Source: Sutcliffiella horikoshii DSM 8719
GTDB lineage: Bacteria > Bacillota > Bacilli > Bacillales > Bacillaceae_I
Reading direction: 5' to 3'
NCBI GenBank assembly: GCA_001648575.1
Contig: LQXN01000063.1
Location: forward strand, 248,001-312,000
Length of the DNA stretch: 64,000 bases
In this document: piece after piece, positions 30,914 to 52,297 of the stretch
Layout: each line of letters opens with the position of its first letter
How positions within the stretch are numbered: position 1 is the stretch's first letter
Program-made: the position numbers and the translations under genes
The notes under the pieces: generated by a model
The model's database searches: none
What the model saw: only the letters and a program-made list of their open reading frames with translations
What the model was told of the DNA's origin: nothing

Positions 30914-31747
30914 TCAAAAAGCCGGGATTGCGGTTTCATCATAGTTTTCTTCCAGGAATTCGCGTACTTCTTTGCTTGTCATGGCTTCAGCAAGCTTTTT
31001 GATAGCTTCTGAGTCCTTATTGTCTTCGCGAGCAACAAGGGTGATGGCAAAATCATTATCTGTTCCTTCTGTAAGGAGTGCATCGCTTTTTGGTGTCAAT
31101 CCAAGTGGAGCTGCATAGGCAGGCGTCATGACCACCGCATCTGCGTCATCATACATTCTAGCAAGCATCAATAGGTCTACTTCCTCAAACTTAAAGTTTT
31201 TAGGGTTTTCCACGATATCTGCTTGAGTATAGTATGGACCTGTTTTTTCTTTCAACGTGATGACCTCGTGTTGTGCAAGAAGTGCCAATGAACGGTCGAT
31301 ATTTGAAACGTCGTTGGCAATGGCAACTACAGCGCCTTCTGGCAGTTCTTCCATGTCATTGTAGTCTTTTGCATATACGCCATAGTTTGCATAATAGATT
31401 GGTGTGATACCAACCAACTCGGCGTCGTTACTTCGGTTGAATTCCTCCATGTAAGGAACATGCTGGAAGAAGTTTGCGTCCACTTCCTCATTTGCAAGTG
31501 CACTGTTCGGTTGCACATTATCGCCTAACACAACCACTTCTAAATCAATGCCTTCCTCGGCAAGCTTCGGTTCCACAAGCTCCAAGATTTCGGTCATTGG
31601 CGGGATCAGGGAAGCCACTTTCAATGTCACTTGTTCATTTTCTGCGTTCTGGCCACTATCCCCAGTCTGTTCATTCCCTTGGTTATTTTGCGCGCAGCCT
31701 GCTAGCATTGTGATAGCTAGCGTAAATATTAATATTAATTTTTTCAT
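30914..31747 (-). CDS. metQ: MetQ/NlpA family ABC substrate-binding lipoprotein, cluster 1
   Basis: 277 aa. Signal KKLILIFTLAITMLAGC with lipobox LAGC; mature domain with LKVASLIPPMTEILELVEPKL, ALANEEVDANFFQHVPYMEEF, GVYAKDYNDMEELPEGAVVAIAND, SNIDRSLALLAQHEVITLK. Receptor of a methionine-type importer. It diverges clearly from the MetQ at 48761-49573, so the ligand may differ (methionine, a methionine derivative or a dipeptide). ATG follows AGGAGG. Confidence 0.9.
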   Translation of the reverse strand: MKKLILIFTLAITMLAGCAQNNQGNEQTGDSGQNAENEQVTLKVASLIPPMTEILELVEPKLAEEGIDLEVVVLGDNVQPNSALANEEVDANFFQHVPYMEEFNRSNDAELVGITPIYYANYGVYAKDYNDMEELPEGAVVAIANDVSNIDRSLALLAQHEVITLKEKTGPYYTQADIVENPKNFKFEEVDLLMLARMYDDADAVVMTPAYAAPLGLTPKSDALLTEGTDNDFAITLVAREDNKDSEAIKKLAEAMTSKEVREFLEENYDETAIPAF

Positions 31748-31805
31748 TTAAAAGTTCCTCCTGTTGCAGTTATGTTCTTGGGGCTGTAATCAATCTTTGT
31801 TATAG

Positions 31806-32468
31806 CTATCTTTTATCAATCAGTCTGGACACGGTCATGCCGGTAAATTGTATCGCTTGTACCAGTATGACCATTATGATGATCATATACATCATCAATT
31901 CGGTTTCAAATCGTTGGTAGCCGTAGCGGATGGCGAAATCCCCGATTCCTCCCCCTCCTACCACGCCCATGATGGTGGAGTAGGAAATGAAGCTGATGAT
32001 CGAAGTCGTCAAACCAAGTACAAGGCCGGATCTGGCTTCTACGTACAAGAATTTAAAAACCACTTCCCTTACAGATGCACCCATGGACACTGCTGCCTCC
32101 AATACTCCTTTAGGCACATCCAATAACGATTGCTCGACAAGGCGCGAGTAATGCGCGATGGCGATGATCGCAAGCGGCACAGTTGCTGCTGCAGTTCCAA
32201 TTGCTGTACCAATGATCCAGCGAGTAAACGGAATCAGAAATACAACCAAAAGTAAAAAAGGGAAGGACCGTGTGATGTTCACCAAAAGGTTGAGCGTGGA
32301 AAAGGCGAGTTGGTTGGATAACAAGTTCCCTTTTCTGCATAGGAAAAGGAGTGTCCCTACCGGAAGCCCCACCAAAATTGCAGCGAGAATAGATACGCCG
32401 ACCATGATGAAGGTTTCCCCGATGGACCTCCATATTTCCGCTTCATATTGCATAAGTATTTCAGGCAC
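31806..32468 (-). CDS. metI: MetI-type ABC transporter permease, cluster 1
   Basis: 220 aa, five TM segments. Permease loop GVLEAAVSMGASVREVVFKF (EAA motif) and TRSFPFLLLVVFLIPFTRW are family hallmarks. It overlaps metN by 8 bp; GTG at 32468 is taken as start (an in-frame ATG lies 5 codons later). Works with MetN and MetQ. Confidence 0.92.
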   Translation of the reverse strand: MPEILMQYEAEIWRSIGETFIMVGVSILAAILVGLPVGTLLFLCRKGNLLSNQLAFSTLNLLVNITRSFPFLLLVVFLIPFTRWIIGTAIGTAAATVPLAIIAIAHYSRLVEQSLLDVPKGVLEAAVSMGASVREVVFKFLYVEARSGLVLGLTTSIISFISYSTIMGVVGGGGIGDFAIRYGYQRFETELMMYMIIIMVILVQAIQFTGMTVSRLIDKR

Positions 32469-33210
32469 GGTCCTCGCCAGCCTCCTTCACCAGCTGCTCC
32501 ACAAAGTATTGAGGATTGCTGTCTATCTGTTTTACACCCTGAGGTTTTGTCCGAACCGTCTCATATACTTCCCCATTTGCCATGACAGTTACGTGATGGC
32601 AGATGCTTTTGATGACTTCCATCTCATGACTCACTACGACAATGGTGACACCTAGGCTTTTATTCACGTTCTCGAGTACACGCAGGACCTCAGCGGTTGT
32701 GTTGGGATCAAGCGAAGAGGTTGGCTCATCGCACAATAGAACCTCAGGATTATTCGCCAAGGCCCTCGCAATGGCCACACGTTGCTTTTGTCCACCGCTG
32801 AGCTGGGCAGGATACTTTTCTGCAAAACCTTCCATGCCAACAAATTGAAGGCATTCCATTACCCGTGTGCGGCGCTTCTTCCACGGAAAACCTGACAACT
32901 CCAAGGATACAGCAATATTCTCATATACCGTTTTGTTCGAGACCAGGTTGAAATGTTGAAAAATCATCCCTATGGACTTGCGTGCCTGTCTAAGCTTTGA
33001 ACCGGCCAATTTTGTCAGGTCCTGACCATTCATTTGCACCTGACCGGAGTCCGGGACCTCCAGAAGGTTCATCAGCCTCAGCAAGGTGGACTTGCCGGCA
33101 CCGCTTGCTCCGATGATTCCATGGATTTCCCCTTTATGTATATTCAAAGACACAGACTTTACCGCTTGATAACCTTCGAAGTCCTTATTGACTTGATGTA
33201 AATTAATCAT
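32461..33210 (-). CDS. metN: MetN-type ABC transporter ATPase without NIL domain, cluster 1
   Basis: 249 aa. Walker A GASGAGKST, Q-loop IFQHFNL, signature LSGGQKQRVAIARAL, Walker B EVLLCDEPTSSLD, H-loop VVSHE. It stops at about residue 249, so the C-terminal NIL (methionine-sensing) domain present in the 338-aa MetN at 47694-48710 is missing; feedback inhibition by cytosolic methionine is not expected. ATG follows AGGAAGGGG. No S-box is visible upstream (33211-33414). Confidence 0.9.
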   Translation of the reverse strand: MINLHQVNKDFEGYQAVKSVSLNIHKGEIHGIIGASGAGKSTLLRLMNLLEVPDSGQVQMNGQDLTKLAGSKLRQARKSIGMIFQHFNLVSNKTVYENIAVSLELSGFPWKKRRTRVMECLQFVGMEGFAEKYPAQLSGGQKQRVAIARALANNPEVLLCDEPTSSLDPNTTAEVLRVLENVNKSLGVTIVVVSHEMEVIKSICHHVTVMANGEVYETVRTKPQGVKQIDSNPQYFVEQLVKEAGEDRA

Positions 33211-43877: not shown

Positions 43878-44354
43878 CTAACCTTTTTTATATTTTTTTA
43901 TTATCTCCTCTGGGATATGGCAATAATCCTCAGGACATCTAGTTAACCTATCCTGATGTTCTTCGGCGCTTCTCACGTAGGTGATAAGAGGCAATACCTC
44001 AACGACTATGCGGTCAGAATCATTTCTTTTACTAATAAAATCCTTCGCCTCTTCCAAATGATGAGGGTTTTCACTATAAACTCCAGTCCTGTATTTTTCC
44101 CCAACATCCGCTCCTTGTTGATTCAAACTATATGGATCTATTATTTCAAAGTAATATTCCATTAATCTCGTTACCGTTACAACTTCCGGATCATATTCAG
44201 TCTTTACGCACTCCGCATAACCATCATAGTCACCATCAAGCGTGTGACTTGTGCCATTCGCCCTTCCCGCTTCTGTGAATATAACCCCTGGCAATGTTTT
44301 AATAAATGCCTGTACACCCCAAAGACATCCGCCGGCAAAATACACTACTTCCAT
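43878..44354 (-). CDS. msrA: peptide-methionine (S)-S-oxide reductase
   Basis: 158 aa. It repairs methionine-S-sulfoxide. The catalytic Cys lies in AGGCLWGVQAF, where the usual motif is GCFWG, so Phe is replaced by Leu beside the active site. Other MsrA landmarks are YCHIPEE-like DYCHIPEEI, DPYSLNQQGADVGEKYRTGVY and EEHQDRLTRCPE. ATG 44354 follows GGAG by 7 nt; a longer frame to 44399 has no ribosome site. Confidence 0.9.
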   Translation of the reverse strand: MEVVYFAGGCLWGVQAFIKTLPGVIFTEAGRANGTSHTLDGDYDGYAECVKTEYDPEVVTVTRLMEYYFEIIDPYSLNQQGADVGEKYRTGVYSENPHHLEEAKDFISKRNDSDRIVVEVLPLITYVRSAEEHQDRLTRCPEDYCHIPEEIIKKYKKG

Positions 44355-44461
44355 TTGGGCACTCCTTTCGGTTTGAAGGGACAATCCTTCACCCTTCACA
44401 TCTTCTACTAGACGATAGATTCTACCTCGTTTTACATAGAATAAGTTGTTCTGTCAGACTT

Positions 44462-45810: not shown

Positions 45811-45855
45811 AAAAGGGACGGTTCTGCTGCTTTGGTAGCAAAAACCGTCCCTTTT
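45811..45855 (+). terminator. intrinsic terminator after the 117-aa gene
   Basis: AAAAGGGACGGTT (45811-45823) pairs with AACCGTCCCTTTT (45843-45855); the loop contains TGCT/AGCA. The A/T-flanked palindrome works in both directions. Confidence 0.88.
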
Positions 45856-45862
45856 CAGCTTT

Positions 45863-45925
45863 TTTCTTTTTCAACTCTGCTTCACACTTATAATGGTTAT
45901 GGTAACCTCCAAGCTGAGTTAAATA
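45863..45925. repeat. remnant of an EamA gene 3' end
   Basis: CTTTTTCAACTCTGCTTCAC ACTTA and ACCTCCAAGCTGAGTT match the 3' end of the frameshifted EamA gene at 51437-51512, with about 16 bases missing in between. A short duplicated fragment, not coding. Confidence 0.7.
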
Positions 45926-45930
45926 TAATT

Positions 45931-47022
45931 TTATATCCTCACTAATAAATCACGATTTAATTCAGATACAGCATTCACTCCCGCTGTGGCCATCGTTGCA
46001 TCAAGGTCATAAATGAAGTTATCCAGTACTGTTTTTACTCCTTCTTCGCCATCGATGGCAAGGCCATACACATACGGCCTTCCCAAAAGAACAGCATCTG
46101 CCCCGAGTGCCATGGCTTTCACCACATCGGCGCCTTTTCGGATACCACTATCAAAAAGGACGGGAATGCGCCCTCCCACTTCATCGACAATCGCAGGTAA
46201 GGCTGCAATGGAGGAGATGCATCCATCAAGCTGCCTTCCTCCGTGGTTGGAGACAATCAGCCCGTCGACTTCATACTCCATAGCCTTTTTGGCATCTGCT
46301 GGATGCAGGATTCCTTTTAGAAGAATCGGAAGGGTAGTTGCCTTACGCAAGGTGGCGATGTCCTCCCATGTGAAACCAGGTGCAAAAAGGTTTTTCACTT
46401 GTTCTTCGATAGCCCTTTGGAAATCTTGGCTTGGCGGACAAGCAAATTTGTTTTGGAAAACAGGGTCCGAAAAATAATTACCAGAAGCCGATCCTAGTCT
46501 GAATGGGGCATATTGATTGGTCAGATCTGCTGCTCTAAAACCTAGAGCCGGCATATCCACTGTAAGGACGATTGCTCCATATCCTGCCTGCTCCGCCCTT
46601 TTAATAAAGCTCATCGTGATTTCCCAGTCACAGCTGCAATATAGCTGAAACCATCTATCCCCTGCCTCCGCTGCAATCTCTTCCATGGAAAAAGAAGTGA
46701 CGGTGCTTGCAATGATGGGGATCCCTACTTGCTTGGCTGCGCGGGAAACTGCAAGTTCCGCTTCTGGATGAACAATGCCCAGATTACCGATTGGAGCTAA
46801 AAGACAAGGTGTTTTGTAGGTTTTACCAAAAAGGGAGATGGATAGGTCCCGCTTGGAGACATCCTGTAGAAATCTTGGCCTGATTTTCCACTTCCGAAGG
46901 TCTCCCACATTATCCTGCATGGTTTCCTCATCCCCTGATCCACTTCTTATGTATGTGAATGGATGTGGGCCCAAGATACTCTCTGCCTTTTTTTCGAGGT
47001 CTTCAAAATGATAAACATTCAT
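45931..47022 (-). CDS. FMN-dependent alpha-hydroxyacid oxidase/dehydrogenase
   Basis: 363 aa. Member of the glycolate/lactate oxidase family. Catalytic residues in family order: Tyr in FTYIRSGSGDEE, FQLYCS, Asp in VLTVDMPALGFR, Lys in ILLKGILHP, His and Arg in VSNHGGRQLDG, and the phosphate-binding DSGIRKGADVVKAMALGADAV. It is the last gene of the SAM-I riboswitch operon: metI ends 10 bp before its ATG. Its substrate is therefore likely linked to methionine; 2-hydroxy-4-methylthiobutanoate is a candidate (inference). Two in-frame GTGs precede ATG 47022. Confidence 0.88.
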   Translation of the reverse strand: MNVYHFEDLEKKAESILGPHPFTYIRSGSGDEETMQDNVGDLRKWKIRPRFLQDVSKRDLSISLFGKTYKTPCLLAPIGNLGIVHPEAELAVSRAAKQVGIPIIASTVTSFSMEEIAAEAGDRWFQLYCSCDWEITMSFIKRAEQAGYGAIVLTVDMPALGFRAADLTNQYAPFRLGSASGNYFSDPVFQNKFACPPSQDFQRAIEEQVKNLFAPGFTWEDIATLRKATTLPILLKGILHPADAKKAMEYEVDGLIVSNHGGRQLDGCISSIAALPAIVDEVGGRIPVLFDSGIRKGADVVKAMALGADAVLLGRPYVYGLAIDGEEGVKTVLDNFIYDLDATMATAGVNAVSELNRDLLVRI

Positions 47023-47031
47023 CACACACAC

Positions 47032-47697
47032 CTAATCTTTCTTAAGCTTTGATGCTATCGTATTTCCAAGTGACTGAAGCCCTTGAACGAGGATGATCAG
47101 TAAAATAACCGTCACATACATAACATCCACTTCATAGCGGAGGTGCCCGTATCTATAAGCTAAATCACCCAATCCACCAGCACCAACAAGGCCAGCCATC
47201 GCAGTGGCGCCAATCAATCCAATCGTTGCGATCGTCAAGCCTAAGACGATGGAGGATCTTGCTTCCCTGATCATGACATTCCAAATGATGTCCTTTGTCT
47301 TGATACCCATCGCTTCATATGCCTCTAAGACACCTTTATCCACATCTAATATGGAGGATTCCATCAGCCTTGCAATGTAAGGAGCCGTATATACAACAAG
47401 CGGTACAATCACGCCCTGTACACCGATCGACGTACCAACAAGGAACTTTGTGAACGGCAGAATGAAGAACAACAAGATGATAAATGGAATAGAGCGGATG
47501 ATATTGATGATGGTGTTCAAGATACCATGTAGATATTTATTTTCAAGGCTTTTCCCCGGTCGTGTCAAAACAAGGAAAACACCAAGGGGCAAGCCGATCA
47601 CAATGGAAATGGATAAAGAAATGGATACCATCTGAAAGGTTTGGATGATTGCCTTCCAAATATCCATCCCCCACGTATCAAAGAATTCGATAATCAT
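47032..47697 (-). CDS. metI: MetI methionine ABC permease, cluster 2
   Basis: 221 aa, five TM segments. EAA loop GVLEAYEAMGIKTKDIIWNV and IIRSIPFIILLFFILPFTKF. It overlaps metN by 4 bp. GGAGG lies before the ATG. SAM-riboswitch operon. Confidence 0.95.
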   Translation of the reverse strand: MIIEFFDTWGMDIWKAIIQTFQMVSISLSISIVIGLPLGVFLVLTRPGKSLENKYLHGILNTIINIIRSIPFIILLFFILPFTKFLVGTSIGVQGVIVPLVVYTAPYIARLMESSILDVDKGVLEAYEAMGIKTKDIIWNVMIREARSSIVLGLTIATIGLIGATAMAGLVGAGGLGDLAYRYGHLRYEVDVMYVTVILLIILVQGLQSLGNTIASKLKKD

Positions 47698-48710
47698 CCT
47701 GCCACCTCCTCAATGATGATCCCTTGGTCTTTCAGATATTGAATGGATTTATCTGTCTCTTCCACCGGACCCCTTAAGTGCACGAGCAGGCTTCCAAAAG
47801 GTGTTCCTTTTAGCTGCGTGATATTCCCGGAAAGGATATTTGGGTACACATTAAATTTTTTGCTGATGGTCGCGAGTGCGGGATCATTGGAAGAGGATCC
47901 TATATACTTGAAAGACACAATTTTCCCCGTGCCTCGAAGAGATTGGAAAACCTCTTCTGTCAGCTGATGGTTAAACAGACTATTGACGAATTTTTTTGTG
48001 GTTTGTTCCTTTGGATGGGTAAAAATATCCACGGTTTTTCCCTGTTCAATAATTTTCCCATTTTCCATGACCGCCACCCTATCGCAGATTCGTTGGATAA
48101 CGTGCATCTCATGTGTGATGAGCAGAATGGTGATTCCTAGCTCCTCATTGATTTTTAATAATAGCTCTAAAATGGACTCTGTTGTATCAGGATCAAGGGC
48201 ACTTGTCGCCTCATCACTTAGTAAAATTTCTGGTTCATGTGATAAAGCACAGGCAATCGCCACCCTCTGCTTTTGCCCTCCTGAAAGCTGACCGGGAAAG
48301 GCATCCGTCTTATCCTTCAGCCCAACAATAGACAAATACTTCGTTACCCTTTCATCAATTTGGGACTTGGGCAAGCCTGTTAAACGAAGGGGGATGGCGA
48401 TGTTATCGTAAACAGTCGCTGTTTTTAATAGGTTAAAGCCTTGAAAAATCATGCCAATTTTTCTTCGGGCAAGTAGCAGCTTCTGCGAAGATAAGGAGGT
48501 AAGATCAGTTCCGTCGACCAAGACCTTCCCATTAGAAGGCCTCTCAAGGAGATTCACACACCGGATCAAGGTGCTTTTCCCAGCACCGCTATACCCGATC
48601 ACGCCATAAATCTCTCCTTTTTGAACCTCCAAGGAAACATCTCGCAATGCTTCTACCTTCCCTTTTTTTGTTGTAAAAGTCTTTTCTAAGTGGACTAGAT
48701 TAATCATCAT
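47694..48710 (-). CDS. metN: MetN methionine ABC ATPase with NIL domain, cluster 2
   Basis: 338 aa. Walker A GYSGAGKST, Q-loop IFQGFNL, signature LSGGQKQRVAIACAL, Walker B EILLSDEATSALD, H-loop LITHE. Residues about 260-338 are the NIL regulatory domain (GKIVSFKYIGSSSNDPALATIS ... ITQLKGTPFGSLLVHLRGP), which binds methionine and inhibits transport. ATG follows AGGAGG. Compare the short MetN at 32461-33210. Confidence 0.96.
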   Translation of the reverse strand: MMINLVHLEKTFTTKKGKVEALRDVSLEVQKGEIYGVIGYSGAGKSTLIRCVNLLERPSNGKVLVDGTDLTSLSSQKLLLARRKIGMIFQGFNLLKTATVYDNIAIPLRLTGLPKSQIDERVTKYLSIVGLKDKTDAFPGQLSGGQKQRVAIACALSHEPEILLSDEATSALDPDTTESILELLLKINEELGITILLITHEMHVIQRICDRVAVMENGKIIEQGKTVDIFTHPKEQTTKKFVNSLFNHQLTEEVFQSLRGTGKIVSFKYIGSSSNDPALATISKKFNVYPNILSGNITQLKGTPFGSLLVHLRGPVEETDKSIQYLKDQGIIIEEVAG

Positions 48711-48760
48711 GTTCCTCCTACTCTAAGAAGTAAGAGCCGCTATAGTAAGCAGCTCTTTTT

Positions 48761-49573
48761 TTACCAAGATGCCACAACAGAGCCTTCGAACGTTTCTTCA
48801 ATAAATTGCTTCACTTCGTCTGAATGGTAAGCCTTGATCAGTTTGTCTAAAACCGGATCATCTTTGTTTTCGGTACGAACAGCGAGCAAGTTCACCCAAG
48901 GAGAATCGCTTGGCTCCATGAAGATGGAATCCTCGGTTGGAACAAGACCATGTTCCACTGCAAAGTTTGTGTTGATGGCGGCTGCGGCCAACTCATCTAG
49001 CTGACGGGGGATTTGAGCTGCCTCAAGCTCCACGAATTCCAGATTTAATTCGTTCTCCTCCACATCCTTTACTGTAGCTTTAACCCCTGCGCCTTCTTTA
49101 AGCTTGATTAATCCCGCTTGTTCAAAAAGGATAAGTGCACGCGCCCCATTTGTCGGATCATTTGGAAGCCCTACTTTATCTCCATCCTTTAATTCGCTTA
49201 CGTCGGTAATGGAATCGGAGTACATTCCCATTGGAAAGTTGACGGTATTGGCTATTTCCACAAGATCTAAGCCCCGGTCCTCTTTAAATTGATCAAGATA
49301 TGGTTTGTGCTGAAAGCTATTTACGTCCAATTCTCTTTCTGCAAGAGCCACATTTGGCATCACATATTCATTGAACACGACAATGTCAATCTCCAGGCCA
49401 TCTTTTTCTGCTACTTCCTTCACTTTCTCTAAAACCTGTTCATGCGGGCCTGCTGTCACTCCTATTTTCAAGCGATCCTCACTTAACGCCTGCCCTTCCC
49501 CTTGCTCTCCACCACAAGCGGTGACTACCAATAATAAAAGAATACTCATGCATAATACTGCGAATTTTTTCAT
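48761..49573 (-). CDS. metQ: MetQ methionine-binding lipoprotein, cluster 2
   Basis: 270 aa. Signal KKFAVLCMSILLLLVVTAC with lipobox VTAC. Landmarks LKIGVTAGPHEQVLEKVKEVA, ELDVNSFQHKPYLDQFKEDRG, FPMGMYSDSITDVSELKDG, GLPNDPTNGARALILFEQAGLIKLK. The gene's ATG overlaps the upstream stop by 4 bp. A hairpin (AAGAGCTGC/GCGGCTCTT, 48730-48757) without U-tract follows and may stabilise the mRNA. Confidence 0.95.
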   Translation of the reverse strand: MKKFAVLCMSILLLLVVTACGGEQGEGQALSEDRLKIGVTAGPHEQVLEKVKEVAEKDGLEIDIVVFNEYVMPNVALAERELDVNSFQHKPYLDQFKEDRGLDLVEIANTVNFPMGMYSDSITDVSELKDGDKVGLPNDPTNGARALILFEQAGLIKLKEGAGVKATVKDVEENELNLEFVELEAAQIPRQLDELAAAAINTNFAVEHGLVPTEDSIFMEPSDSPWVNLLAVRTENKDDPVLDKLIKAYHSDEVKQFIEETFEGSVVASW

Positions 49574-50674
49574 GCTTCTCTCTCTCCTTTTTGTAATGTT
49601 TCTAGTTTTGTAATGGCAGCAACAATATCCTGCTGCGTAAATTTATTTTTCATGAAATGGATGGATTCGTGAGGCAAAAGCGCCTTTTCAGCGATTAGAT
49701 GTATATCTTCCCGCCCCTGAATATGTAGTTCCCTACAAGAGGATGGCAATCCTATTTGCCTATAGAATGGGAGGAGCGATCTAATTTCTTCCTCGTTCCC
49801 CTCCAGTGCAAGTTGTACGAGTATCCCATATGCCACCTTTTCTCCATGAAGCAGCTCCTTTGTGCCAGGTAGATGGGTTAGTGCATTATGGATCGAATGC
49901 GCTCCAGCCACTCGTCCATACTCATCCCCAAAGCCACCTACCATTCCCCCCAGCAAAATATTCGCCTCGATAATGGTGAGGACAGAAGTGGAAAGATTAC
50001 CTTCCTCGCAATCTATCAACGCCTGATTGCTCTCCTCTATTAATCGATTTCTACTTAATTTTGCCGCATGCAGCGCTACCTCCACAGGCAACGGGATGTA
50101 ATCCCAACCCATGCACAATGGCATTCGCCTCATACCATTTGGCAAGCGTATCCCCAATCCCAGCTTTCAAATATCTTAACGGTGCTTCTAGAATCACCCT
50201 TGGTTCTATTAGGACCATATAGGTACTGCGGGGAAAGACAGTGTAGGTTTGGAAACGTCCCTCGTCATCATAAATGACGCTTAACGGTGTCCAAGCCGCA
50301 CAAGTAGAGGCAAGTGTCGGTATGAGGATGACGTCCTTTTTAGCCTCATGCCCTGCAGCCTTTGCAAGATCCAGGACCTTTCCTCCTCCTATTCCAACGA
50401 CAGCATCGACGTGTAAGGATTCTGTCAGCTCTTTACATCTTTTTATTTCAGATTCGGAACAGACGCCAGAGTAAGCAGCATATGTCGTACTAACTTCCGG
50501 AAGGTCCGGCCAATACGGTTGTATAGCCTGGAAGGACTTCTCTCCATGAATGATCAGCAAGGAATCAATATCCCTTTCCTTTAAAAGCGAAGACAATTCC
50601 TGCAGTATATTCTCCTGGCATTTATAAAAGCTTGGTGCTCCTTGAATTCGAATCGAAATGTTCCTCACCCCCAT
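49570..50674 (-). pseudogene. iron-containing alcohol/glycerol dehydrogenase-family gene, frameshifted
   Basis: Two frames together give a whole family member. N-part (50674 to about 50100): VVGIGGGKVLDLAKAAGHEA (NAD-binding), PTLASTCAAWTPLSVIYD, LKAGIGDTLAKWYEANAIV (metal-binding Asp). C-part (about 50130-49570): IPLPVEVALHAAKLSRN, AGAHSIHNALTH and LLHGEKVAYGI with the two metal-binding His. The frame changes within G-runs (GCATGGGTTGGGATT). All catalytic residues are kept, so this may be a recent frameshift or a sequencing slip. First gene after the SAM-I riboswitch. The start at 50674 has no clear ribosome site and is uncertain. Confidence 0.8.
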
Positions 50675-50692
50675 ATTGTCTTGGGAGGCAAA

Positions 50693-50866
50693 ATAAAAAA
50701 GCCTCCCTAAAAGAAGAGAGGCTTACGTATTAAAAATACTCGGTCCTCTCTCATCTTCCAAAACACTTCACGTGTCTTGCTGGAATTAGCACCTTTCCTT
50801 ACGAAACATAAGAATGGTTGCCGGGCATCATAGGGCCAGTCCCTCCGCCTCTCTTGATAAGAGAAT
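50693..50866 (-). ncRNA. SAM-I (S-box) riboswitch with terminator
   Basis: On the minus strand the S-box core is complete. P1 strand CTCTTATC (50856-50863) pairs with GATGAGAG further down; between them are AGAGAGGCGGAGGGACTGG, the conserved GATGCCCGGCAACC, and GGTGCTAATTCCA. The terminator AAGCCTCTCT/GGGAGGCTTTTTT lies at 50693-50724, and AGAGAGG of the P1 3' strand can form the alternative anti-terminator. High SAM should stop transcription of the downstream metQNI operon. Confidence 0.97.
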
Positions 50867-50905
50867 TTGCATATTAAATTAGTAAAATTCTAAAATTTAA
50901 TTGTA

Positions 50906-50934
50906 AGTATAATCTGTATTTTTAATGCTGTCAA
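50906..50934 (-). promoter_or_regulatory. consensus sigma-A promoter of the SAM-I operon
   Basis: TTGACA (50929-50934), 17-bp spacer, TATACT (50906-50911), about 40 bp before the aptamer. Confidence 0.92.
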
Positions 50935-51426: not shown

Positions 51427-51440
51427 CCCTTTGATTCTTT

Positions 51441-52297
51441 TCAACTCTGCTTCACACTTAATATGGTCACTGTCACCAAGATGATGGCCATACCTCCAAG
51501 CTGAGTTGCTGTAAGCAGTTCACTCAGCACAATAAATCCAAAAAGGGATGCGGTGACCGGTTCCACCATTGCAATAATGGAAGCTGAAGTCGGTGAGGTT
51601 CGTTTCAAACCAACTACATACAAGAAGAATGACAAGCCTCCTCCGAATACCCCTAAAAGTATCATCCATAATAAGTCAGGTGAGTAAAAGACGGAAACTG
51701 CTTCACTGTGATCAGTGAAAAACAGCGTTATAATAGTAAAGGCAAGAAATGCAATCGTTAAAACCCCTTGCGGCTGCCCGTGGCGGGATGCATATTTAAA
51801 ACCAAAAATAAATAATGAATACGATAACCCCGCTCCTAACCCAGTAACAAGCCCAAGCATCGTGATGCTGTCGGAGCCAATGCTGTAAACCTCTGTCAGC
51901 AATACCACTCCCCCATCACAAAACCAATAGCCAACCATTTAAATAATGATGCCCTTTCAAGCTGAAATATGAACGAGATAAGCAGAACAAAAATAGGTGC
52001 TGTATACATCAATGTCGCCGCTACGGCAATACTTGCCTCAGAGATACTGATAAAGTAAAATATAAAATTCCCCGCCACTCCGATCCCAGCAACAATAGAC
52101 CACAACAACAACTGCTTATTCCACCGTGTCGGCTTGAACAAGAACCAAATAAGAATACATAATAAACCTACTGTTCCCCTATAAAAGGAAATGACCAGGG
52201 GGTCCCAACCTTTATCCATTAAAAAGCCGCCCAGTCCACCGGAAATGCCCCATAATATTGCTGCAAAAATTACTAATCCTACCCCACCTGCACGCAT
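51441..52297 (-). pseudogene. EamA (DMT) family transporter gene, frameshifted
   Basis: N-part from 52297 (GLVIFAAILWGISGGLGGFL ... LFKWLAIGFVMG) and C-part to 51441 (GGVVLLTEVYSIG ... YVVGLKRTSPTSASIIAMVEPVTASLFGF) form one ten-TM EamA protein of about 286 aa. The frame breaks at about 51910 in ATGGGGGAGTGG: one more G in the G5 run restores MGGVVLLTE. Both halves are otherwise well preserved, so the break is recent or an error. GTAACAAT precedes the start; no strong ribosome site. Confidence 0.82.

Follow-up and report, generated by a model that had tools for sequence, protein, structure and literature searches.

Methionine auxotrophs of Escherichia coli are able to use alpha-hydroxy methionine and its keto analogue (PMC3274233). 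The E. coli gene ybdH (hcxA), described as a putative alcohol dehydrogenase of unknown function, is repressed by MetJ and both co-occurs and shares metboxes with methionine salvage genes (PMC3228920); its product has been termed a hydroxycarboxylate dehydrogenase (PMC11481890). In animals, an L-2-hydroxy acid oxidase and a D-2-hydroxyacid dehydrogenase act on the L and D forms of 2-hydroxy-4-methylthiobutanoate (HMTB, or hydroxy-methionine), a compound used as feed additive (PMC8941097) and, under the name MTHB, an intermediate of dimethylsulfoniopropionate (DMSP) synthesis and a substrate of methionine salvage (PMC11306096). Here we describe an operon in a 64-kb window of Sutcliffiella horikoshii DSM 8719 (the whole stretch of DNA analysed, from contig C66 of the 67-contig draft genome G000), in which a riboswitch for S-adenosylmethionine (SAM) precedes an iron-containing alcohol dehydrogenase (Fe-ADH) related to HcxA, the methionine importer genes metQ, metN and metI, and a flavin mononucleotide (FMN)-dependent hydroxyacid oxidase. 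A SAM-controlled association of the HcxA-like Fe-ADH with metNIQ, joined in part by the FMN oxidase and the transaminase MtnE, is almost certainly conserved in Bacilli, and its function is probably the SAM-repressed salvage of HMTB. In order of transcription, the operon and its borders comprise:

50906 to 50934, minus strand: sigma-70-type promoter, TTGACA-17-TATACT (11 of 12 consensus matches)
50748 to 50863, minus strand: SAM-I (S-box) riboswitch aptamer (RF00162, 90.2 bits, E 3.6e-20, model positions 1–108 of 108)
50699 to 50724, minus strand: intrinsic terminator of the riboswitch expression platform (10-pair stem, then a T run)
50051 to 50674, minus strand: HcxA-like Fe-ADH, N-terminal open reading frame (ORF) before the frameshift (PF00465, 85.6 bits; best model NF007880, 156.9 bits)
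49570 to 50157, minus strand: HcxA-like Fe-ADH, ORF for the C-terminal part, downstream of the frameshift (NF007880, 149.3 bits; no Pfam match)
48761 to 49573, minus strand: metQ, substrate-binding lipoprotein (PF03180; TIGR00363 over its cut-off)
48732 to 48757, minus strand: hairpin in the metQ-metN gap (RNA fold)
47694 to 48710, minus strand: metN, ATPase with NIL domain (PF00005, PF09383)
47032 to 47697, minus strand: metI, permease (PF00528; PRK10782, 193.5 bits, cut-off 212)
45931 to 47031, minus strand: FMN-dependent alpha-hydroxyacid oxidase (PF01070, E 4.5e-122; GTG start, alternative ATG at 47022)
45811 to 45857, no strand assigned: long hairpin with a small bulge 3' of the oxidase (RNA fold; absent from the terminator-scan list)

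A preliminary description of this DNA had reported a consensus promoter and a complete S-box ahead of five genes that overlap or lie within about 50 bp of each other. Promoter and full-length S-box were both confirmed, as was the close packing, with 4-bp overlaps at Fe-ADH/metQ and metN/metI, 0 bp at metI/oxidase and a 50-bp gap at metQ/metN. The order of the five genes on one strand also held; the Fe-ADH, taken there as one gene, is split by an extra G that had been overlooked. The riboswitch scored far above the RF00162 gathering score of 44.4 bits, was the sole Rfam match at gathering level within the window, and reached 105.8 bits with a model (R1) made from nine S-boxes of the same genome, its own among them. 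While the TTGACA-17-TATACT site stands immediately ahead of the riboswitch, promoter-like sites were not enriched across the region (five seen vs 13.1 in shuffles), so that the consensus says little by itself.

In E. coli, hcxA and the methionine transaminase gene ybdL are neighbours that point away from each other. Similarly, an HcxA-related Fe-ADH lies next to a divergent transaminase gene, at most one small ORF away, at nine Bacilli loci (L108, L114, L117, L127, L135, L137, L139, L207 and L214), and E. coli HcxA is 34–42% identical to the 47 Bacilli Fe-ADHs compared. Unlike the Bacilli operons, the E. coli pair is controlled by the MetJ protein rather than an S-box, and its neighbours as shown include neither metNIQ nor an FMN oxidase. 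The animal DL-HMTB route resembles the module proposed here in having one enzyme per enantiomer, both converging on 2-oxo-4-methylthiobutanoate (KMTB) (PMC8941097). The window oxidase is related in sequence to hydroxyacid oxidase 1; in contrast to the operon, the animal route is housed in organelles and has no importer linkage. Its D-specific enzyme is of a different kind from Fe-ADH.

To what extent the cluster recurs was followed at several levels. Among 18 genomes of the family, MetQ of the window type (71–100% identity) and Fe-ADH (47% or more) occurred in the same eight and were always adjacent; one further genome, G016, gave an Fe-ADH match of only 23% identity. The oxidase was adjacent in seven of the eight (split in G005), and G002 lacked it at the operon and had a homologue elsewhere. 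On a wider scale, Fe-ADH homologues at E <= 1e-45, GldA types included, were present in at least 129 of 397 genomes, and oxidase homologues at E <= 1e-60 in 83 of 348 genomes of the order. An oxidase search of genome contigs yielded five loci, including the whole operon in Sutcliffiella rhizosphaerae (L033) and metQNI-oxidase in Aquibacillus (L034). Four samples of Fe-ADH loci were then compared, which together span the listed matches down to about 295 bits: 47 strong loci, ten of them chosen for a nearby oxidase match; 40 weaker loci as mid-tier and controls; 20 loci, of which nine came from the order and the rest were 11 of the 12 class matches outside it; and 16 loci including the twelfth class match, 14 of which score like those sampled earlier. 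A quick tree of 89 rows (the first 87 loci, E. coli HcxA, and GldA as outgroup) separated a clade of 55 Fe-ADHs from 32 others. With metQ or metI within five genes counted as beside metNIQ, 43 of the 55 clade members qualified vs 0 of the 32 other Fe-ADHs, and 40 of the 55, compared with 2 of the 32, had a same-strand S-box at the head of the Fe-ADH gene or of the operon containing it.

The 36 loci of the later batches, which are not in the tree, gave 32 beside metNIQ and 26 headed by an S-box. In the batch of 20, the respective counts were 18 and 15 (L180 and L186 had neither, L184 and L187 no S-box, and L191 an S-box on the opposite strand); in the batch of 16, they were 14 and 11, L207 and L214 carrying a transaminase and an amidase-like gene in place of metNIQ, L204–L206 an S-box on the opposite strand, and L214 and L215 none. 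A stop within the Fe-ADH gene was reported by the search in three later-batch loci (G106, G315, G335). The search for conserved clusters that the preliminary description had suggested thus found one that recurs across Bacilli, and the finding it had named as fatal to its proposal, restriction to this strain, does not apply. Chance is accordingly a very improbable account: the enzymes would have been swept into a methionine operon to which they are functionally unrelated, for which the rearranged site of the window operon, with a relic of an EamA-type transporter gene on its far side, could be cited, whereas the association is seen in many families, involves at least two lineages of MetNIQ and takes several gene orders, with none among the 32 controls. 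Short of a sampling artefact, these control Fe-ADHs reject chance clustering.

Independent links with methionine metabolism came from loci arranged differently. Gene order varies, with the Fe-ADH first, last, or accompanied by an amidase-like gene and a divergent transaminase, and at six loci (L114, L122, L135, L137, L139 and L207) an S-box directly precedes an Fe-ADH with no metNIQ nearby; its control is therefore not mere hitch-hiking on the importer. The Fe-ADH was also found together with MtnE- and MtnU-like genes: an MtnE-like transaminase (>450 bits) was at most five genes away in 11 of 55 clade members, 0 of 32 controls and 4 of 16 loci of the last batch. In L107, S-box, PRK08068 transaminase, Fe-ADH, metQ, metN, metI and oxidase form one contiguous run, the entire proposed route within a single operon.

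The window genome itself provides a frame for these links. It has 11 S-boxes, which by family models precede mtnK and mtnA, mtnW and mtnX, metK, and cysH; two further ones precede O-acetylhomoserine sulfhydrylase, one a pyridoxal phosphate enzyme of methionine biosynthesis (PRK08247), one a luciferase-like (LLM) monooxygenase whose best match, SfnG, is below cut-off, and one an ATP-binding cassette (ABC) set without a named family at the threshold used, which looks like a methylthioribose importer. Another heads an ordinary metN-metI-metQ set on contig C63 (named by sequence reading), which like the window operon combines a SAM-I riboswitch with the importer genes; unlike it, the C63 set is listed without oxidoreductases, and its MetQ shares 39% identity with that of the window operon. 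Besides mtnK, mtnA, mtnW and mtnX, the genome carries a PRK08068 transaminase, which together with a nitrilase-like protein lies between mtnK/mtnA and mtnW; from this position we take the two to be MtnE and MtnU, respectively. No NCBIfam model matched the nitrilase-like protein at 1e-60. Salvage by the mtnK/A/W/X/E/U genes ends in KMTB and its transamination; these genes share S-box control with the window operon, although their pathway starts from methylthioribose and not, as in the proposed module, from a hydroxy acid. This setting bears on the idea that another methionine-derived compound is salvaged, such as 2-hydroxybutanoate or 2-oxobutanoate, a methylthio-alcohol or -aldehyde, or hydroxylated or oxidised methionine. 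Fe-ADHs have a broad substrate range, the nearest kind with solved structures is GldA, and one cluster (L161) includes a GAF-domain protein and LuxS; the type of transaminase that adjoins the Fe-ADH, however, is the one situated between mtnK/mtnA and mtnW/mtnX, which points to KMTB and leaves these other compounds improbable, slightly more so than any other functional alternative discussed here.

For salvage of hydroxy-methionine, the mechanism would be as follows. Low SAM would let the riboswitch permit read-through, and MetNIQ would import methionine and perhaps HMTB. The FMN oxidase would convert L-HMTB to KMTB, and the HcxA-like Fe-ADH would probably do the same with D-HMTB; MtnE would then transaminate KMTB to methionine, with an MtnU-type amidase pulling the transamination forward. 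We infer substrate, stereochemistry, direction, HMTB import and the roles of MtnE and MtnU from gene company, which suggests hydroxy-methionine conversion: many Bacilli keep a methionine importer and one or two hydroxy-acid-converting enzymes behind an S-box. Hydroxy-methionine is the most economical choice of compound, and we favour it with some reserve. The preliminary description had already proposed that the oxidase turns HMTB into the 2-oxo acid one transamination from methionine; recurrence, the MtnE- and MtnU-like genes and the S-boxes without metNIQ lend this idea strong contextual support, the substrate itself staying a matter of deduction. Its further suggestion, that a GldA/ADH-family protein acts on a related hydroxy compound, needs revision, since the enzyme is HcxA-like and more probably takes the other enantiomer of the same compound. 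In its widest form the proposal would make the HcxA-like Fe-ADH the missing D-HMTB dehydrogenase of Bacilli and E. coli, with the FMN oxidase serving L-HMTB and some MetNIQ lineages importing HMTB, in a widespread, so far unassigned salvage pathway; this we put forward tentatively, as a serious possibility. If it is true, bacteria could draw HMTB for growth from several sources: leakage from other microbes, DMSP synthesis, and animal feed to which it is added.

The same neighbours, MtnE- and MtnU-like genes, would also suit an Fe-ADH working as a reductase. Such an enzyme would reduce surplus or leaked KMTB (or 2-oxobutanoate) to the hydroxy acid, in an overflow or detoxifying role tied to the transaminase, and any oxidase present would reclaim the product. 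The name hydroxycarboxylate dehydrogenase for E. coli YbdH (PMC11481890) and the reductase that makes MTHB from its 2-oxo acid (MTOB) in DMSP producers (PMC11306096) are in line with this direction. Linkage to a SAM riboswitch and an importer, on the other hand, is more readily explained by supply than by the removal of a precursor of methionine, and we regard the reductase role as rather unlikely.

Several observations weigh against salvage of HMTB as set out above. The Fe-ADH clade of 55 has an SH-aLRT branch support of only 87, and the place of HcxA is unsure because its branch is long. Twelve of the 55 have no metNIQ nearby; a transaminase is near in five of these (L114, L117, L135, L137, L139) and the other seven have neither, L122 among them being headed by an S-box. 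In the window assembly the Fe-ADH frame is broken, and G005 has a split oxidase. Moreover, the oxidase is optional, being present in 17 of the 55 Fe-ADH stretches, ten of the 55 having been picked for a nearby oxidase, and its nearest non-tandem relative among solved structures is lactate 2-monooxygenase 6dvh (288.5 bits). Finally, a 75/75% scan of operon against other oxidases gave no clean specificity position, so that a different substrate is not proven by sequence alone; position 111, a valine in all 19 operon oxidases aligned and in 2 of 14 others, emerged only on a looser second look. This position presumably corresponds to Trp108 of spinach glycolate oxidase, a residue that faces the substrate.

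The oxidase covers the whole PF01070 domain (407.9 bits, 3–349 of 350), a family (FMN_dh) whose members act on L-2-hydroxy acids. Y27, Y131, D159, R166, K239 and H263, which we take to be its usual catalytic residues, are kept in 19 of 19 aligned operon oxidases; the specificity alignments comprised 14 of 16 non-operon oxidases, the far outgroup rows L036 and L037 being dropped, and omit the split G005 oxidase and those found later. A plain lactate or glycolate oxidase, or an enzyme like lactate 2-monooxygenase, might merely ride along, leaving the Fe-ADH alone in methionine metabolism. Most Fe-ADH stretches indeed lack the oxidase, the non-operon relatives carry the same catalytic residues except for one F at position 131, and 6dvh outscored hydroxyacid oxidase 1 (257.1 bits); a tandem lactate oxidase construct reached 378.4 bits summed over two copies, 186 each. 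With 6dvh the window oxidase also has an NYxxDPVFQxKF stretch in common, followed by an insertion that is shorter in the window oxidase; oxidative decarboxylation and an elongated loop 4 are the traits of lactate 2-monooxygenase that we considered. In contrast to lactate 2-monooxygenase and L-lactate oxidase, however, the window enzyme stands in a methionine operon and falls below the cut-off of every NCBIfam lactate oxidase or dehydrogenase model that it matched (218.3 vs 645.5 bits for TIGR02708, L-lactate oxidase). Oxidases are also linked to metQNI behind an S-box where no Fe-ADH is adjacent (L034, L046), and the 19 operon oxidases, with their uniform V111, may form one clade (not rejected by the approximately unbiased test, p-AU 0.406). 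We consider a ride-along oxidase unlikely, if the foremost of the alternatives to its part in HMTB salvage.

NF007880 (PRK10586), the model matched by both halves of the Fe-ADH, presumably stands for YbdH/HcxA. Because an intact orthologue (P0001) stayed below its equivalog cut-off (315.3 vs 429), we call the enzyme HcxA-like and not HcxA. Each of the 47 clustered homologues, like the two window halves, scored higher with E. coli HcxA than with GldA, and in the tree HcxA grouped with an enclosing set of 67 rows (SH-aLRT 93 with HcxA, 81 without). A GldA function is disfavoured, since P0001 reached 277.7 bits against the NF006941 cut-off of 336 and GldA falls outside the Fe-ADH clade, although it is the nearest kind having solved structures. 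The GIGD, GAHSIHN and HGEK motifs are retained and align with the GldA metal site, where we assume them to be functional. Compared with the intact gene of a relative (G007), the two overlapping ORFs of the window differ by one extra G, and seven family relatives have a single long open frame of 365–393 aa; on these grounds a programmed frameshift is not favoured. An EamA-type transporter gene adjoining the promoter is frameshifted as well (51441–51938 and 51896–52297, minus strand; intact in G007, 305 aa), and the proximity of the two broken frames may point to assembly errors.

The importer has the full MetNIQ composition of NIL-domain ATPase, permease and NlpA lipoprotein. Of the NCBIfam models, TIGR00363 was above cut-off (252 vs 228.85), and MetN (401.9 vs 499.7), MetI (193.5 vs 212) and PRK11063 (267.4 vs 374) were below. 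The linked MetNIQ sets fall into at least two distinct groups, with MetI either 74–97% or 42–52% identical to the window's. A term search of the 2025 MetNI-Q paper found no mention of HMTB binding by MetQ. The hairpin in the metQ-metN gap, which may raise the transcript level of metQ above that of metNI, recurs in shape but with different letters in seven relatives with gaps of 54–72 bases (L034, L038–L041, L043, L046) and was not found in L100, L101, L104 and L121, where the gaps have 4–24 bases. The terminator scan detected no terminator-like site on the operon strand at any gene junction, metI/oxidase included, and two weak ones within genes (metI, 47141–47126; oxidase, 46179–46160), out of a total of seven sites vs 5.7 by chance. 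The long hairpin at 45811–45857 likely marks the operon end.

In the open-licence literature, with most subscription journals outside its scope, we found no bacterial genes assigned to HMTB oxidation or conversion into methionine, and no paper on the combination of SAM riboswitch, alcohol dehydrogenase and metNIQ; nor were such genes found in the excerpt of an RNA-regulon paper (PMC3766115). The comparison yields named candidates for HMTB genes from two phyla, controlled by two SAM sensors that are unrelated to each other, and offers a reason for the methionine control of E. coli ybdH.

Beyond the operon, sequence from the 3' end of EamA (51429–51507) recurs on the operon's far side (45859–45920; 80% identity over 49 nt plus 16 identical nt), and G005 has the arrangement small ORF, EamA, 207-aa gene, operon. 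Either the operon or EamA has therefore moved. A plasmid origin was considered and dropped, as the plasmid collection gave no match at megablast sensitivity. Past the operon end lies a peptide-methionine (S)-S-oxide reductase (43878–44399, minus strand; PRK05528 over cut-off), and a third NlpA-lipoprotein/permease/ATPase set is located at 30914–33210 (minus strand), its MetQ-like protein being 32% identical to the operon MetQ. Among the relatives, G017 has a transposase-like gene, IS256 type by eye, between metQ and metN (L044, 10039–11211). In the S-box-associated cluster of L161 (3463–10644), Fe-ADH and metNIQ come after genes for a GAF-domain protein, a transaminase and a short-chain dehydrogenase and are followed by LuxS (domains confirmed); L165 (2817–9747) has the same set by eye, with an S-box between Fe-ADH and metN. 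The GAF-domain protein of both resembles a free methionine sulfoxide reductase. In L142 (2443–9840, minus strand), an S-box is followed, by eye, by an LLM monooxygenase, an ATP-grasp-like protein, another Fe-ADH, another aminotransferase and an SsuABC-like transporter, and a similar pair of monooxygenase and ATP-grasp-like protein follows an S-box in the window genome (C66:168805).

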